From NCBI RefSeq assembly GCF_016888005.1, contig NZ_JAFDVE010000011.1, positions 62,001 through 126,000 of the forward strand: a stretch of DNA of 64,000 nucleotides, read 5' to 3'. Numbering within the stretch: the first letter of the stretch is position 1; each line of letters opens with the position of its first letter. A model generated the notes under the pieces. It was given only the letters and a program-made list of their open reading frames with translations. It had not been told where the DNA came from and ran no database searches. The position numbers were made by a program, and so were the translations under genes. Below are positions 29,938-45,327 of the stretch, piece by piece. The DNA comes from Phycicoccus sp. CSK15P-2 (GTDB lineage: Bacteria; Actinomycetota; Actinomycetes; Actinomycetales; Dermatophilaceae).

Positions 29938-30831
29938 TCAGTTCCCTCCCTCGGCAGTGACGTCCTGGCCGTCCATCAGCTGCTCGCGGTTGAGTGTGTT
30001 GTTGAGCAGGCCGGTCTGGTCCGCGGCGCGCAGGTCGGCCATGTGGGCGTCGTACTCCGCACGGGAGACGACCTTGACGTTGAAGAGCATCTGCGAGTGG
30101 TAGGCGCCGCAGAGCTCGGCGCACTTGCCCTTGAACTGCCCCTCCTGGGTGGGGACGACCTGGAAGCGGTTGACCCGGCCGGGGACCATGTCCATCTTCT
30201 GCAGGAACGCGGGGATCCAGAAGGAGTGGATGACGTCGCGCGACGTGAGCACGAACTCGGTGCGCTCGTTCACCGGCAGGTAGAGCGTCGGGATGGTCTC
30301 CTCGGCACCGGGCTCGCCGGTGAGGATGGCCTGGGTGCCGACCTCGTGCACGTCGTCCTCGAGGTAGTTGAAGTCCCAGCTCCACTGCTTGCCGACGACG
30401 TTGACCGTGACGTCGGGCTGCTTCGAGGTGTCGATGAGCGCGGCCTCGTCCCGGGCCGTGTAGTAGAAGAGCACGATGACCATGAGCATCGGCACGGCCG
30501 TGTACAGGATCTCGATCGGGATGTTGTAACGGAGCTGGACGGGCAGCTCGGTGTCGTCCTGCTTGCGGCGGTAGGCCACCATGCACCAGACGATGAGGCC
30601 GATGACGAGCAGGCCGACCCCGATCGCCGCGATCCAGGCGCCGATCCACAGGGAGGTGACCCGCTCGCCGCCTTCGGTCACCGCGTGCGGGAGCCATCCG
30701 GTGGAGACGTCACCGCGCAGGTCGGCGCTGGCACATCCCGAGAGGGAGGCGACGGCCAGGCCTCCGGCGAGGGCCAGGACGCCGGAGCGGCGCCCGTCGC
30801 GACGGGGCGAGGTGAGGTCGTGCTGGCGCAC
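29938..30831 (-). CDS. ctaC: Cytochrome c oxidase subunit II (CuA protein)
   Basis: The 297-residue lipoprotein subunit has the signal LAVASLSGC, two membrane helices ([20 protein letters not shown] and [19 protein letters not shown]) and a cupredoxin domain. The CuA ligands are the His in DVIHSFW and the motif [12 protein letters not shown] (Cys, Glu, Cys, His, Met all present). It receives electrons directly from QcrC in the supercomplex. The GTG at 30831 follows GAAGGG by 7 bases. A TAGGGT -10 box at 30871-30876 (minus strand) gives a leader of about 35 bases. Confidence 0.96.
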
Positions 30832-30921
30832 CGCTGCACCCTTCGGGTCGGGAGTGGACGATCGGTGAAAACCCTACTGCACCCCACCTGGGTCGGACAC
30901 GCAGGGGGCTACCGTTCAGGC
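30832..30921. promoter_or_regulatory. Divergent promoters of ctaCDF and the NifS-like/TusA pair
   Basis: The minus-strand -10 TAGGGT (30871-30876) serves ctaC with a short leader and a GAAGGG ribosome site. The plus-strand -10 TACCGT (30910-30915) ends 6 bases before the GTG of the NifS-like gene, indicating a leaderless mRNA. Confidence 0.55.
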
Positions 30922-32097
30922 GTGGCGCACGGCACCTTCGACAGCCCTCGCGGCGACCCCTCGACGGATACCCCCCGGGGCGTTCTGGACGCGGCTCCCG
31001 GCCCGCTGCACCCGGCCGCCGGGCAGACCCTCGCCGCGGCCTCCCGGGTCTCGTGGGCCGACCCCGTGCGGCTCCACGCCCCGGGACGGCGCTCCCGGGC
31101 GCTCCTCGACACCGCCCGCGCGGTCCTCGCCGAGGCCCTGGAGGTCCGGCCCGAGGACCTCTCCGTGCACCCGACCGCGGAGGACGCCCTCGCCGTCGGG
31201 CTGGACGGTCTGCGGCACGCACGCCGGAGGGTCGGCCAGCGCGTCGTCGCGTCCGCCGTGGAGCGCTCGGTCGTCCTGCTGCGCGGCGACGTCGAGGACC
31301 CCGTGCCGGTCGGGCCCACCGGACGGGTCGACGTCGCCTCGTTCACGGCGCAGGTCGCCGAGCCCGGCGTGGCCGCCGCCGTCTCCCAGACGGCGAACGG
31401 CGAGGTCGGGACCCACCAGCCCGTCCTCGATCTCGCCCGGGCTGCCGCGGACGCCGGCGTGCCGCTGCTCGTCGACGCCACCGCCTCCCTCGGCCGAGAC
31501 CCCCTCCCCGGCGTGGGTGACGTCGTCGTGGCCGACGCCGCGGCCTTCGGAGGTCCGCCGCTCGGACTGCTCGCGGTGCGGCCCGGGACCCGCTGGGGGC
31601 TGCCCGGGCCCCGCCGCGAGGCCGAGCACGGTCGTGCCCTCGCCACACCGTGGGTGCCGAGCGTGCTCGCCGCAGCGGAGGCCTGGCGACAGGGCACGGC
31701 ATCCCACCGCACCGACGCCGAGCGGGCCCGGGTGCTCGTCTCGCGGGTGCGCACCGCCGCCGCGGCGGTCCGCGACGTCGAGGTCGTGGGCGACCCCGAC
31801 GCCCGCCTCCCCCACGTCGTGACCTTCAGCGTCCTGCTCGCCGACGGCGAGGTGCTCGTCGAGGAGCTGGCCCGGCGAGGGCTCGCGGTCGGGTCCGGCT
31901 CGGCCTGCACGTCGAGCGCGCTGCGGCCGAGCCACGTCCTCGCCGCCATGGGGGTGCTGACCCACGGCAACGTCCGGGTGACGCTGCCGCTGGAGTCGGT
32001 GTGCCCGGACCGCGAGGAGGACGTCGACCGGCTCTGCGCCGTCCTCGCCGAGGTCGTAGCCGCGGTCCGCGAGCGGCTCGGGACCGCGGACCTGTGA
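30922..32097 (+). CDS. NifS/cysteine-desulfurase-like protein lacking the PLP lysine (no lysine at all)
   Basis: The 391-residue fold-type I aminotransferase class V relative aligns with IscS/NifS along its length: HPTAEDAL, QTANGEVGTHQPV, VDATASLG, FGGPPLGLLAVR and the active-site loop GSGSACTSSALRPSHVLAAMG (Cys 329). At the PLP site the expected H-K-F-G-G-P reads A-A-F-G-G-P, so Lys is Ala 208, and the PLP-stacking His reads Arg in SAVERSVV. I find no lysine anywhere in the translation. It therefore cannot form the usual internal aldimine but keeps the persulfide cysteine. The GTG at 30922 is 6 bases after TACCGT. It overlaps the tusA-like gene as GTGA, so it may be a persulfide carrier rather than a desulfurase. 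Confidence 0.85.
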   Translation: MAHGTFDSPRGDPSTDTPRGVLDAAPGPLHPAAGQTLAAASRVSWADPVRLHAPGRRSRALLDTARAVLAEALEVRPEDLSVHPTAEDALAVGLDGLRHARRRVGQRVVASAVERSVVLLRGDVEDPVPVGPTGRVDVASFTAQVAEPGVAAAVSQTANGEVGTHQPVLDLARAAADAGVPLLVDATASLGRDPLPGVGDVVVADAAAFGGPPLGLLAVRPGTRWGLPGPRREAEHGRALATPWVPSVLAAAEAWRQGTASHRTDAERARVLVSRVRTAAAAVRDVEVVGDPDARLPHVVTFSVLLADGEVLVEELARRGLAVGSGSACTSSALRPSHVLAAMGVLTHGNVRVTLPLESVCPDREEDVDRLCAVLAEVVAAVRERLGTADL

Positions 32098-32357
32098 GCA
32101 ACCCGGAGGTCGTCGACGCCCGCGGCACGCGCTGCCCCGTCCCGGTGGTCCGGGTCGCCCGCGCGGCCCGCTCCCTCGCACCGGGCGAGGTCGTCGTGCT
32201 GCTCGCCGACGACGAGGCCGCCCGCTCCGACGTCCCGGCCTGGGCCCGGATGCGGGGGCACGGGCTCACCGTCGAGGACGACGGCACGTGGACCCGTTAC
32301 ACCGTCCGGGTCGCGGGGACGACCTCCGACGGCTCCGGCGAGGCGAGGTCGACCTGA
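32094..32357 (+). CDS. TusA-family sulfurtransferase
   Basis: The 87-residue protein has the TusA/SirA signature VVDARGTRCPVPVVRVARA with the sulfur-carrying Cys 14 in a CPxP motif, followed by the usual second half (LAPGEVVVLLADDEAA, ARMRGHGLTVEDDG). TusA proteins receive persulfide sulfur from desulfurases and pass it on, for example to tRNA thiolation or cofactor synthesis. The GTG at 32094 overlaps the NifS-like stop by four bases (GTGA), so the two are translationally coupled. I recall actinobacterial fusions of the same two domains. This protein also contains no lysine. Its 3' end overlaps aat on the other strand by 61 bases. Confidence 0.88.
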   Translation: MSNPEVVDARGTRCPVPVVRVARAARSLAPGEVVVLLADDEAARSDVPAWARMRGHGLTVEDDGTWTRYTVRVAGTTSDGSGEARST

Positions 32358-42111: not shown

Positions 42112-45100
42112 TCATCCGCCGGTGCGCGCCTCCCGCGCGAGGCACAGGGCGGACAGCATGGTCCCGTATCCCCGGACGGCCAGGGGTGAGGCGTCGCGCC
42201 GGCTCCGGTCCCCGCACCCGCTGCTCCCCCCGTCCCGTGGCAGGACGTCGGGCGAGGTGTCGACCACGGGCTCGGCGCCGCACTCCACCTCCGAGACCGG
42301 CGGGACACCGGACCGGGCCACCTGGTCGTCGCGGGCACAGGTGAGGCCGTCGAGGGACTGCTGCGAGAGGACCCAGCCGAGGGGGGCGGCGATCGAGGGG
42401 CGGGTCGGTTGGAAGAAGACCTTGGCCACCGGACCGCGCCAGGTGTCGAGCGCCGCGCAGACCTCGGGCGGCTCGCTCTCCGGCCCCGTCCCGCATCCGG
42501 GGACGACCTGGTCGGTCCCCAGCGTCGCGGCGACACGGTGCAGCTGGGCGTCGGTGGACGACAGCGCGGCCCGGGCCGCTCCCTGGGTGACGAGCGGGAC
42601 GAGGGCCTCGTTCCTGGCGCCCGGGGCCTCGACCCGGAGGTCGCTGCCGGAGCCGTTGTCGAGGTAGAGGACGACCGGCAGGACGAGGGCATCCCCCGAC
42701 CCGGCGAGCACGGCCGCGTTGTGCGCCCGCACGACGGGCAGCCACCGTGACGCGAGGTCGACGACGGTCCCGATGCCGTCGTTGTCGGCGTAGCCGCCGT
42801 CGACGATCTGCTGAGCGTCGGGGTCCGGCTCCCCGGGCGCGCACCCGCTCGTCACGACGCCGGACGGCGTGACGTACGGGAACCGCGAGGCGAGCAGCGC
42901 CACGGTGCTGGCCCGCAGCGTGGGTGGCGGGCCCGTGCACCCCGACCGCAGGGTGGGCAGGAGGTCGACGCTGCCGGGTGGCGAGGTGGGCGTGCGGCAG
43001 TCGCGCGGGACGGCGTCGGGGTCGAGCGCCGCCTGGCTGAGGAGCGTGCGGCATCGCGTGGCCACCGATGTCGAGTTGAGGACCAGTGCCCCCGTCACGC
43101 GGCCGGTACCGACGTCGAGGAACGGCCGGTCCAGACCGGTGACCGCGCGCTCCCACTCGCGCTCGACGAGGCCGGCGCGGTCGACCCAGCCGGGCTCGTC
43201 GGCCGGGAACGGGACGCCGGCGACGGACCGGACCGGGTCGCGGACGAGCAGGCCGGCCATGGCGACGCCCAGGGCGTCCGGACCGGCCATCCGGCGCACC
43301 GCCTCGAAGGCCGCGCCGTCGTCGGTCGCGGCGGTGACGGTGAGCCCGACCGCGCCCCCGCTGGCCCCCGACGACATGAGGGCCTCCCCGCAGGGCCCAC
43401 CCGCCTCGTGCAGCGCGTCGGTGCCGAGGGCCGTCCACGCGGCGGCCCTGATGCCACCGCCCTCGGCCGCGAGCAGGAAGAGCGGGCGGACACGGTGGGG
43501 TGTGCCGGGCAGGGGCGCACCACACGTGGGGTCGGCCAGGAGACCACGGGCACGGTCGTCGAGGCCTGGCCGGTCCGCCACGGTGCGCGAGCCCGGCGGG
43601 GCCTCGGCCAGAGTCCGTAGTCCGTGCACCCGCGCGTCGCTGCCGGTGAGACCGATGCCGGCGGCGGTGGCGACGACGAGGGTCATCACCGGTGCAGTAC
43701 GCAGCACAGGGGTCCCCGGGCGGGACAGGAGGTCGGGTGCTCCGCCGCCCTGCAGCAGCAGCACCGTGGCACCGAGCGGGACGGCGACCGCGGTGACCGC
43801 GAGGAGCACGACCTCGATGACCCCGAGGTGCGTGACGAACGACCGCGGCCGCAGGCCCAGGGCGACGAAGAGGGAGACCCCGCCCACGAGGAGCGCCCAG
43901 CCGACGGCACGGGCCCGGCCTCGGGCGGCCGGGTCGAGCTCCGCGCCCGGGGTGAGCGCGACGAGGAGCGCAGGATGGGCGAAGCGGGCGAGGGCCTGCC
44001 CGACGAGCAGCGCGGCGGGCCAGACCACGAGAGCCCCGAGCAGACCGACGAGGAGGCACGCCAGCGACCAGCCGCGCTCGCCGAGCGCGACGGGCGCGGC
44101 GAAGGAGCGGACCAGCCCGAGCGCCGGGATAGCGAGGACGAGCACCGCGACGACGTCGCCGACGACCCGCACGGTGCGCGCCGACTCCCGGGTGGCCGGA
44201 CGCAGGTACCTGCTCCACAGGACCCCGCCGCCGGCCCACCGCAGCAGCACCGAGCCGAGCCACAGCACCCAGGGGACGAGCACGGAGACCGCGAGGCGCG
44301 CGAGGATGACGTCCGCGTCCTCGACGACCAGCACGGACACCCCGGCGCCGACGAGGAGCGCCGCGCCGGTGACGAACCACGGGAGGAGCGCCGGGCGGCG
44401 GTAGGGCGCCGCGTCCGGCAGGACCTGCATCGCGACGTAGTGGCTGCGCAGCCGGCCGACGACCGCGACGACCATCATCACCACCGCGGTGAGCGTGCCC
44501 GCCATGGTGAGGCGCGCGCCGGCGGCGCCGTCCGCCCAGCGCCGGTGGACGTCGGGCATCTGGTCGAGAATGTCCGCCCCCGAGGCGAGCCCCAGCGCGG
44601 CGAACGGCACGACGACGAGCAGCGAGAACCGATGGGTGTACAGGCCGGACAACACCTGGCGCCCCACCCCGGGCGGGGTGGCGGGCTCGCCGGGCTCGTA
44701 GGGCGTCGGATGGTCCGGGCCGCGTAGGAGGTCACGGGCCTGGCGCCGCCCGACGACCGCGGCGAGGGCCGCGAGGGCGAGGCAGAGCCAGGTGGCCCGC
44801 GAGGCGGTGACGAGCAGGTCCGGGTCACCGCCCGCCAGGCCCAGCAGGAGACCCGACCCGGCGAGGTCCGCGCCCGCACCGAGGGCCACGAGGACCACCG
44901 CAGCGACGGTCCAGCCCCTCCCGTCCGCGACGGCGAGCGCCCGGCGGCCGAGGAGCAGGACGGCGGCCAGGCCGTACAGCAGGGCGAACACGACGTCGAC
45001 GACCGCGTACGCGGTGACCCATCCGTCGAGCGCCGGCCTGGTGGAGGCGGCTCCGGCCAGCGCGGTCCACGTGGCGACGAGCTCGCCGCGCGGGGTGGTC

Positions 45101-45327
45101 AGCGCCCCCGGGCCGGTGAGGGTCGTCAGGGAGGCGGACTCACCGTCGAGGACCACCTGCGCGACGAGCCCGGCCAGCTGGGCCAGCCCGATGAGAGCGG
45201 CCGTCAGGGCGCAGGCCCATGCCCCCGCGGCGGCCACCGTCCACGACGGGAGGGAGGCACGGAAGTCCTCTCGACGCTCCTCCTCCGTGCGGGACTGCAG
45301 CAGCGTCGTCGCTCCGAGCGATGTCAT
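42112..45327 (-). CDS. Large membrane protein with C-terminal patatin-like phospholipase domain
   Basis: In this 1071-residue protein, roughly the first 550 residues hold about ten to twelve hydrophobic segments. The C-terminal half has a patatin-type Ser-Asp hydrolase: oxyanion-hole motif AAEGGGIRAAAW, nucleophile elbow SSGASGGAVG (GxSxG, Ser 656) and the catalytic Asp motif DGGYADNDG (Asp 843). It would be a membrane-tethered acyl hydrolase. A cysteine-rich tail near residues 980-1050 (CALD, CARD, ECGAE, SGCGD) suggests disulfides, favouring an extracytoplasmic catalytic domain. The ATG at 45327 has a weak AGGA. The gene ends 7 bases from the convergent DUF3043-like stop. I know no characterised equivalent. 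Confidence 0.85.
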   Translation of the reverse strand: MTSLGATTLLQSRTEEERREDFRASLPSWTVAAAGAWACALTAALIGLAQLAGLVAQVVLDGESASLTTLTGPGALTTPRGELVATWTALAGAASTRPALDGWVTAYAVVDVVFALLYGLAAVLLLGRRALAVADGRGWTVAAVVLVALGAGADLAGSGLLLGLAGGDPDLLVTASRATWLCLALAALAAVVGRRQARDLLRGPDHPTPYEPGEPATPPGVGRQVLSGLYTHRFSLLVVVPFAALGLASGADILDQMPDVHRRWADGAAGARLTMAGTLTAVVMMVVAVVGRLRSHYVAMQVLPDAAPYRRPALLPWFVTGAALLVGAGVSVLVVEDADVILARLAVSVLVPWVLWLGSVLLRWAGGGVLWSRYLRPATRESARTVRVVGDVVAVLVLAIPALGLVRSFAAPVALGERGWSLACLLVGLLGALVVWPAALLVGQALARFAHPALLVALTPGAELDPAARGRARAVGWALLVGGVSLFVALGLRPRSFVTHLGVIEVVLLAVTAVAVPLGATVLLLQGGGAPDLLSRPGTPVLRTAPVMTLVVATAAGIGLTGSDARVHGLRTLAEAPPGSRTVADRPGLDDRARGLLADPTCGAPLPGTPHRVRPLFLLAAEGGGIRAAAWTALGTDALHEAGGPCGEALMSSGASGGAVGLTVTAATDDGAAFEAVRRMAGPDALGVAMAGLLVRDPVRSVAGVPFPADEPGWVDRAGLVEREWERAVTGLDRPFLDVGTGRVTGALVLNSTSVATRCRTLLSQAALDPDAVPRDCRTPTSPPGSVDLLPTLRSGCTGPPPTLRASTVALLASRFPYVTPSGVVTSGCAPGEPDPDAQQIVDGGYADNDGIGTVVDLASRWLPVVRAHNAAVLAGSGDALVLPVVLYLDNGSGSDLRVEAPGARNEALVPLVTQGAARAALSSTDAQLHRVAATLGTDQVVPGCGTGPESEPPEVCAALDTWRGPVAKVFFQPTRPSIAAPLGWVLSQQSLDGLTCARDDQVARSGVPPVSEVECGAEPVVDTSPDVLPRDGGSSGCGDRSRRDASPLAVRGYGTMLSALCLAREARTGG

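Follow-up and report, generated by a model that had tools for sequence, protein, structure and literature searches.

The window analysed here, by which we mean the whole stretch of 64,000 nucleotides from Phycicoccus sp. CSK15P-2 (contig NZ_JAFDVE010000011.1, positions 62,001 to 126,000), contains a two-gene cassette that lies divergently from the cytochrome c oxidase gene ctaC. The features of the locus are as follows:

29938..30831, minus strand: ctaC, cytochrome c oxidase subunit II, the divergent neighbour, with a COX2 domain
30832..30921, no strand: intergenic region shared by ctaC and the cassette, with blocks conserved in relatives
30922..32097, plus strand: cysteine-desulfurase-fold protein (IscS/NifS type) without the PLP lysine, 391 residues, no lysine, matched by Pfam Aminotran_5, NCBIfam NifS, and cysteine desulfurases in the PDB
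31264..31266, plus strand: codon of Arg115, placed by alignment at the PLP-stacking histidine site (E. coli IscS His104; the His of VEH)
31534..31536, plus strand: codon of Asp205, placed by alignment at what we take to be the PLP-phosphate serine site (E. coli IscS Ser203)
31543..31545, plus strand: codon of Ala208, placed by alignment at the PLP-lysine site (E. coli IscS Lys206)
31906..31908, plus strand: codon of Cys329, the persulfide-loop cysteine in GSGSACTSS, placed by alignment
32094..32357, plus strand: TusA-family sulfur carrier, 87 residues, no lysine, overlapping the upstream gene as GTGA (PF01206, E 1.8e-20)
32133..32135, plus strand: codon of TusA Cys14 in the CPxP motif, a cysteine in 102 of 103 lysine-less and 64 of 65 (one gap) lysine-bearing partners

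The reading frame of the larger protein starts with GTG, and the same start is found in the seven Phycicoccus/Nostocoides relatives that were aligned. Conserved blocks of the intergenic region lie around CCCTACTGCACC at 30872 and at GGGGGCTACCGT, and the motif TACCGT (30910-30915), which lies six bases ahead of the start codon, resembles the promoter of a leaderless transcript. The window also has qcrA, qcrB, and ctaD to one side and, to the other, aat, genes for a PfkB-type kinase, an ErpA-type protein (Fe-S_biosyn), and a glycerate kinase, as well as nadA, the names of these neighbours having been tested by Pfam.

Membership of the 391-residue protein in the type I cysteine desulfurase fold family follows from its match to the aminotransferase class V profile (PF00266, Aminotran_5), at 41.9 bits against a cut-off of 21.5. 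It also matched NCBIfam NifS (TIGR03402, E 3e-36) and IscS (TIGR02006), but with 125 and 68.3 bits it stayed below the respective equivalog cut-offs of 530.75 and 643.2. Its best single-sequence matches in the PDB were 4r5f and 4eb5, entered as cysteine desulfurase IscS 2, which together with 4hvk we take to be Archaeoglobus fulgidus (A. fulgidus) IscS, and the family profile matched the cysteine desulfurase 4isy at 5.5e-96. The initial annotation had described a protein with Ala208 in place of the PLP lysine, Arg115 in place of the stacking histidine, and a retained persulfide loop around Cys329, overlapped by a TusA gene; all of this was borne out when Ala208, Arg115, and Cys329 were placed by alignment with the ordinary IscS (L002) encoded in the same genome, and the GTGA overlap was found at 32094-32357. 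L002 has the lysine (VTAHKVGGP), and its gene adjoins an mnmA-type gene; SufS also scored above cut-off in this genome. The window protein has neither a PLP-binding lysine nor a lysine elsewhere in the chain, and besides Arg115 it carries Glu87, Asp205, and Ala207 at the positions which we take to be the phosphate-binding Thr, Ser, and His. The 87-residue partner scored 73 bits with PF01206 against a cut-off of 28.6, has the CPxP cysteine in RCPVP, and was the sole protein of the genome in which the Pfam TusA model found a match.

Orthologues were collected from several searches, which gave a match at 1e-30 in 94 of the 186 genomes of the window's family, at 1e-25 in 106 of 396 genomes of the order and 241 of 394 genomes of the class, and 46 loci in named genomes. 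Part of the matching order and class genomes were retrieved, and the lysine status given for these is that of a sample. The 222 loci yielded 200 distinct trimmed sequences, and 193 remained after the removal of seven rows, namely ordinary or distant IscS-like proteins (L002, L143, and L076), a frameshifted sequence (L064, of which L210 is the copy), and fragments (L209, L211, and L212). Some weak matches in the searches were ordinary IscS, the one retrieved being L143 from order family f2, and L077 gave no match. The frameshifted orthologue (L064/L210) comes from a complete Phycicoccus genome; its coding sequence runs over two frames, which makes it either a pseudogene or a sequencing slip.

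A lysine is present at the PLP site in 66 of the 193 distinct orthologues, which come from 17 family groups, from MAGs, and from named Kribbella and Streptomyces genomes, and absent in 127, among them every retained sequence labelled as belonging to the window's order. The initial annotation had asked whether the altered PLP site and the lack of lysine are conserved. The loss at the site clearly is, and 98 of the 127 lysine-less proteins contain no lysine at all, but alanine itself occupies the site in just 12 of the 127. The others have Ser (72), Asp (25), Thr (13), Gly (2), or one each of Val, Glu, and Leu. Family f1 has Ser, Thr, or Ala (plus one each of Val, Leu, and Gly), while Asp or Glu is found in f9 (18/18) and Asp in f10 (6/7) and f13 (1/1). 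The lysine is also absent from the site in the order families f5, f13, f16, and f18, and in two sequences, L154 (f40) and L161 (f57), whose families belong to the class but not to the order.

For the tree, 80 orthologues were thinned from the 193 and joined by two outgroup IscS rows; the trait columns were taken out, and L133, L139, L140, and near-copies were omitted. The 45 rows from the order grouped together (SH-aLRT 91) with L154 and L161 outside, so that three trait changes are needed. However, constraining all 47 lysine-less rows to a single clade gave a tree with a better score, which the AU test did not reject (p-AU 0.858). One loss is therefore possible, and several independent losses, to which the quick tree would point, are no better shown than a single one. 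Taken as a whole, the sequences support a loss of the PLP lysine that is old and clade-wide.

Cys329 forms the sole invariant cysteine column, being present in 127/127 lysine-less and 66/66 lysine-bearing sequences (193/193 in all), while the cysteine columns 175 and 304 drift. The stacking-histidine site (IscS His104), which is His in 66/66 lysine-bearing proteins, has His in 71 of the 127 others, Arg in 46, Gln in 8, and Ala and Ser in one each. At Thr76, Ser203, and His205 of IscS, presumably the phosphate-binding positions in the mapping used here, the lysine-less proteins retain Thr in 27/127, have Asp in place of Ser in 109/127 (Ser in 66/66 lysine-bearing proteins), and have His in 0/127, and the Gln183 site is Gln in 0/127, compared with 37/66 of the lysine-bearing proteins. 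An aspartate at the Ser203 site would place a negative charge where the PLP phosphate would sit. In IscS, the PLP ring nitrogen is bound by the aspartate equivalent to Asp185. Since Asp185 (IscS Asp180), Glu161, and Arg352 (IscS Arg354) are unchanged in 127/127 lysine-less proteins, the PLP pocket has not been fully dismantled.

We quantified the erosion over the 49 columns that are at least 99% fixed in the lysine-bearing set, five of which are PLP contacts and 44 are not. The weighted mean residue retention in the lysine-less set was 0.37 for the PLP-contact columns and 0.90 for the others, and four of the five PLP-contact columns were eroded compared with 13 of the 44 others (permutation p 0.0001). 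Excluding the lysine column, PLP-contact retention was 0.46 (p 0.0024); when limited to the fixed non-lysine contacts named in PMC9978102 (His104 and Asp180), the erosion was not significant (p 0.26). Both sets of genes have low dN/dS, with a median of 0.185 and a maximum of 0.278 over 63 lysine-less pairs, indicating purifying selection, and a median of 0.134 over 185 lysine-bearing pairs.

That neither the 391-residue protein nor its TusA has a single lysine, as initially annotated, is correct as a count. The accompanying idea, that nucleophilic lysines may be avoided in such a sulfur relay, found no support in a comparison with the surroundings. Lysine averages 1.55 per 100 residues in the window (36 genes from a rough filter that missed the 30922..32097 gene), no lysine occurs in three of the called genes with 200 residues or more, and one of 1071 residues has a single lysine. 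The last is a called reading frame at 42112-45327 on the minus strand with no Pfam match at 1e-6. In addition, lysine-bearing orthologues have a mean of 1.65 lysines besides the catalytic one, so that a protein of this family that lost its catalytic lysine would often have none. With 73% GC, the window has other lysine-free genes as well, so that the data do not support a chemical reason for avoiding lysine, and we regard the lysine-free state as ordinary and as adding little. It does mean that in the 98 orthologues concerned there is no relocated Schiff-base lysine in the same chain.

The proposed coupling to TusA has fared well, as TusA is the usual neighbour, lying directly downstream in 65 of 66 lysine-bearing loci and in 102 of the 126 lysine-less loci with enough sequence. 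It is fused in frame to five distinct lysine-less proteins from two families (L042, L043, L045, L049, and L162) and to 11 lysine-bearing ones (10/10 retrieved from family f37, and Streptomyces L068). The lysine-less fusions lie among unfused relatives on the tree and so probably arose separately, which is the best sign that the desulfurase-fold protein and TusA still act together. An obligate partnership with the adjacent TusA is nevertheless ruled out, as none was found within ~750 bases in 24 of the 126 lysine-less loci, where Cys329 stayed. Fourteen of these loci belong to one genus of family f1 (e.g., L185, L192, and L207), all with aat 8-98 bases downstream, and where TusA is missing in this genus, the protein is under similar constraint (dN/dS 0.272 against 0.248). 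Genome-wide, 11 genomes without an adjacent TusA gave a strong TusA match in three cases (E 3e-17 to 4e-18) and only a weak one in eight. The second cysteine of TusA (PAWC) is present in 65/65 lysine-bearing loci compared with 57/103 lysine-less loci. It appears to vary with the residue at position 115 of the larger protein, in that 52 of the 103 lysine-less loci with an aligned TusA have both His115 and the cysteine, 42 have neither, and nine are mixed (phi 0.82, the top of the columns scanned). The 94/103 loci that agree, however, represent only three to four independent pairs (sign test p 1), and we regard the coupling as a lead only.

The initial annotation had noted the nearby oxidase genes as a possible but purely positional link. 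In one respect the link is stronger than was then said, since ctaC lies divergently just upstream in 187/193 loci (64/66 lysine-bearing and 123/127 lysine-less). Five of the six exceptions have no ctaC match in the retrieved stretch (L146, L149, L139, L140, and L047, for which the stretch begins only 17 bases upstream), and the sixth, L128, is rearranged, in that ctaC follows the cassette in the same orientation at a distance of 529 bases and an Fe-S_biosyn-type gene lies upstream. L139 and L140 are two divergent copies in one genome of family f10; the loop of L139 is changed to GCGCTCGR, and its TusA has Asn at the CPxP cysteine. In another respect, the link is weakened, in that the cassette is dispensable. 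There was no cassette match at 1e-30 in 92 of the 186 family genomes, and all 22 of the cassette-less genomes that were checked keep ctaC, with aat 137-331 bases away. A search of ~1.5 kb beside ctaC in cassette-less genomes found no remnant of the cassette, the two matches obtained being at chance level (E 0.45 and 0.62). The oxidase can thus generally do without the cassette, and an essential oxidase role is ruled out. The association with the oxidase genes is a conserved one, but it is one of position.

What, then, might the protein do? By analogy with known variants, it is very probably not a desulfurase. Our judgment is based on the E. coli IscS K206A mutant, for which PMC9978102 reports no desulfurase activity; on A. 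fulgidus IscS, in which the PLP lysine is naturally Asp and which likewise has no desulfurase activity according to PMC7585200; and on the complete lack of lysine in 98/127 lysine-less orthologues. Although some PLP remains bound to IscS K206A, whose authors speculate that the reaction might proceed in part and very slowly (PMC9978102), we infer that the window protein holds no stable PLP.

Our preferred reading, to which we give about even weight, is that a catalytically dead desulfurase has been retained to relay persulfide or to act as a scaffold, in most cases together with TusA. Under this scheme, the PLP lysine of a cysteine desulfurase sited with TusA in many actinobacterial families would have disappeared in an ancestor of the order to which the window belongs, with the desulfurase fold and loop retained and catalysis gone. 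Cys329 would probably receive its sulfane sulfur from a partner, either the IscS or SufS of the genome or a small persulfide, and would then pass the sulfur on, usually to the TusA encoded alongside. Potential suppliers are at hand, as all eight genomes checked for SufS had one that scored above cut-off and all ten checked for an IscS-type gene had one. That Cys329 accepts sulfane sulfur from a separate donor and delivers it, mostly to TusA, seems to us about as likely as not. A more ambitious version, in which an order-wide, PLP-free sulfur-relay pseudoenzyme and TusA would serve some step connected with the adjacent bcc-aa3 respiratory supercomplex, seems to us unlikely.

The same residues can be read in other ways. 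Cys329 might be a cysteine ligand, not a sulfur carrier, that helps to keep a metal or an Fe-S cluster on a scaffold while a cofactor is being assembled, and the window has candidates for such a process in the ErpA-type Fe-S protein (Fe-S_biosyn), NadA, the Rieske protein (qcrA), and the CuA subunit. The aspartate or glutamate at the lysine site throughout f9, and the aspartate in nearly all of f10 and in f13, would suit this idea, as 4eb5, presumably A. fulgidus IscS, shows Asp at the same site in our alignment. The window's own protein carries Ala rather than Asp, however, no cluster partner was identified, and the conserved neighbour is TusA, which is even fused to the desulfurase-fold protein. 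Thus, even with the precedent of the inactive, Asp-bearing A. fulgidus IscS, whose cysteine is reported to be a ligand to the IscU cluster (PMC7585200), we think a ligand role improbable. We are more sceptical still that the protein remains a PLP enzyme, with the cofactor held without a Schiff base by Asp185 and stacking, and with slow or different chemistry. The invariant Asp185, Arg352, and Glu161, the stacking histidine of 71/127 lysine-less proteins, and the PLP retained by IscS K206A (PMC9978102) would fit this, but the window's own protein has lost the stacking histidine, the Gln183 site is never Gln in the lysine-less set, and 98/127 of that set have no lysine that could stand in. The presumed phosphate sites are likewise lost in most or all of these proteins (Thr in 27/127, Ser changed to Asp in 109/127, and His in 0/127).

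It is similarly hard to credit that the fold is a structural leftover, a dimer or TusA stabiliser in which Cys329 is kept for folding and not for sulfur. The clean absence of the cassette from many relatives, and the drift of His115 and of the second TusA cysteine in many lineages, are what such a leftover might show, yet one loop cysteine is kept in 127/127 while other cysteine columns drift, and the protein has a similar dN/dS at loci without the adjacent TusA. Lastly, the split L064/L210 gene of one relative might suggest that the window sequence is itself a sequencing or assembly error, or a pseudogene. We give this virtually no credence, and an assembly error in particular is ruled out, because the lysine is absent from 127 distinct sequences, in many genomes, with open frames and under purifying selection.

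Returning to the carrier or scaffold that we favour, the same loss in the sampled relatives from the same order suggests an enzyme turned sulfur carrier. Related bacteria carry the lysine-bearing or the lysine-less orthologue at one and the same locus, usually partnered by TusA, and the change from producer to carrier or scaffold is thus open to direct comparison. Furthermore, a desulfurase–TusA cassette adjoins ctaC across many families of the class, so that it would be worth looking for a step in the maturation of actinobacterial oxidases or Fe-S centres that uses sulfur. To our knowledge, lysine-less desulfurases are known only from archaea (A. fulgidus and Methanosarcina acetivorans), and our literature search, whose coverage took in few subscription papers, found none on a bacterial TusA-linked lysine-less form or on the actinobacterial cassette.

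In the E. coli IscS–TusA relay, the loop cysteine of a type I desulfurase hands sulfur to TusA, and we take 3lvj to be the structure of that complex. E. coli IscS makes its sulfur with PLP, whereas the window protein is without the lysine, the stacking histidine, and the phosphate-site residues. The IscS–TusA interaction is also described in a review. Nearer relatives are the lysine-bearing actinobacterial orthologues of Streptomyces (L068) and Kribbella (L052), which occupy the same site divergent from ctaC and are ~50% identical, with TusA fused in the former and adjacent in the latter. Both retain SAHKWGGP, the stacking histidine, and the second TusA cysteine, and in these the window cassette differs.

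The closest precedent is the lysine-less IscS of A. fulgidus. Like that protein and the IscS1 of M. acetivorans, the window protein has an IscS fold and a cysteine loop and has naturally lost its PLP lysine, so that the combination of a substituted lysine site and a kept loop that marks the A. fulgidus type is found here too. The archaeal proteins are tied to IscU, whereas the form described here is bacterial, linked to TusA, and adjoins cytochrome oxidase genes. Moreover, the PLP-lysine site is Asp in A. fulgidus IscS, but Ala, Ser, Thr, or Asp in the group to which the window protein belongs, which extends over many genera of one order.
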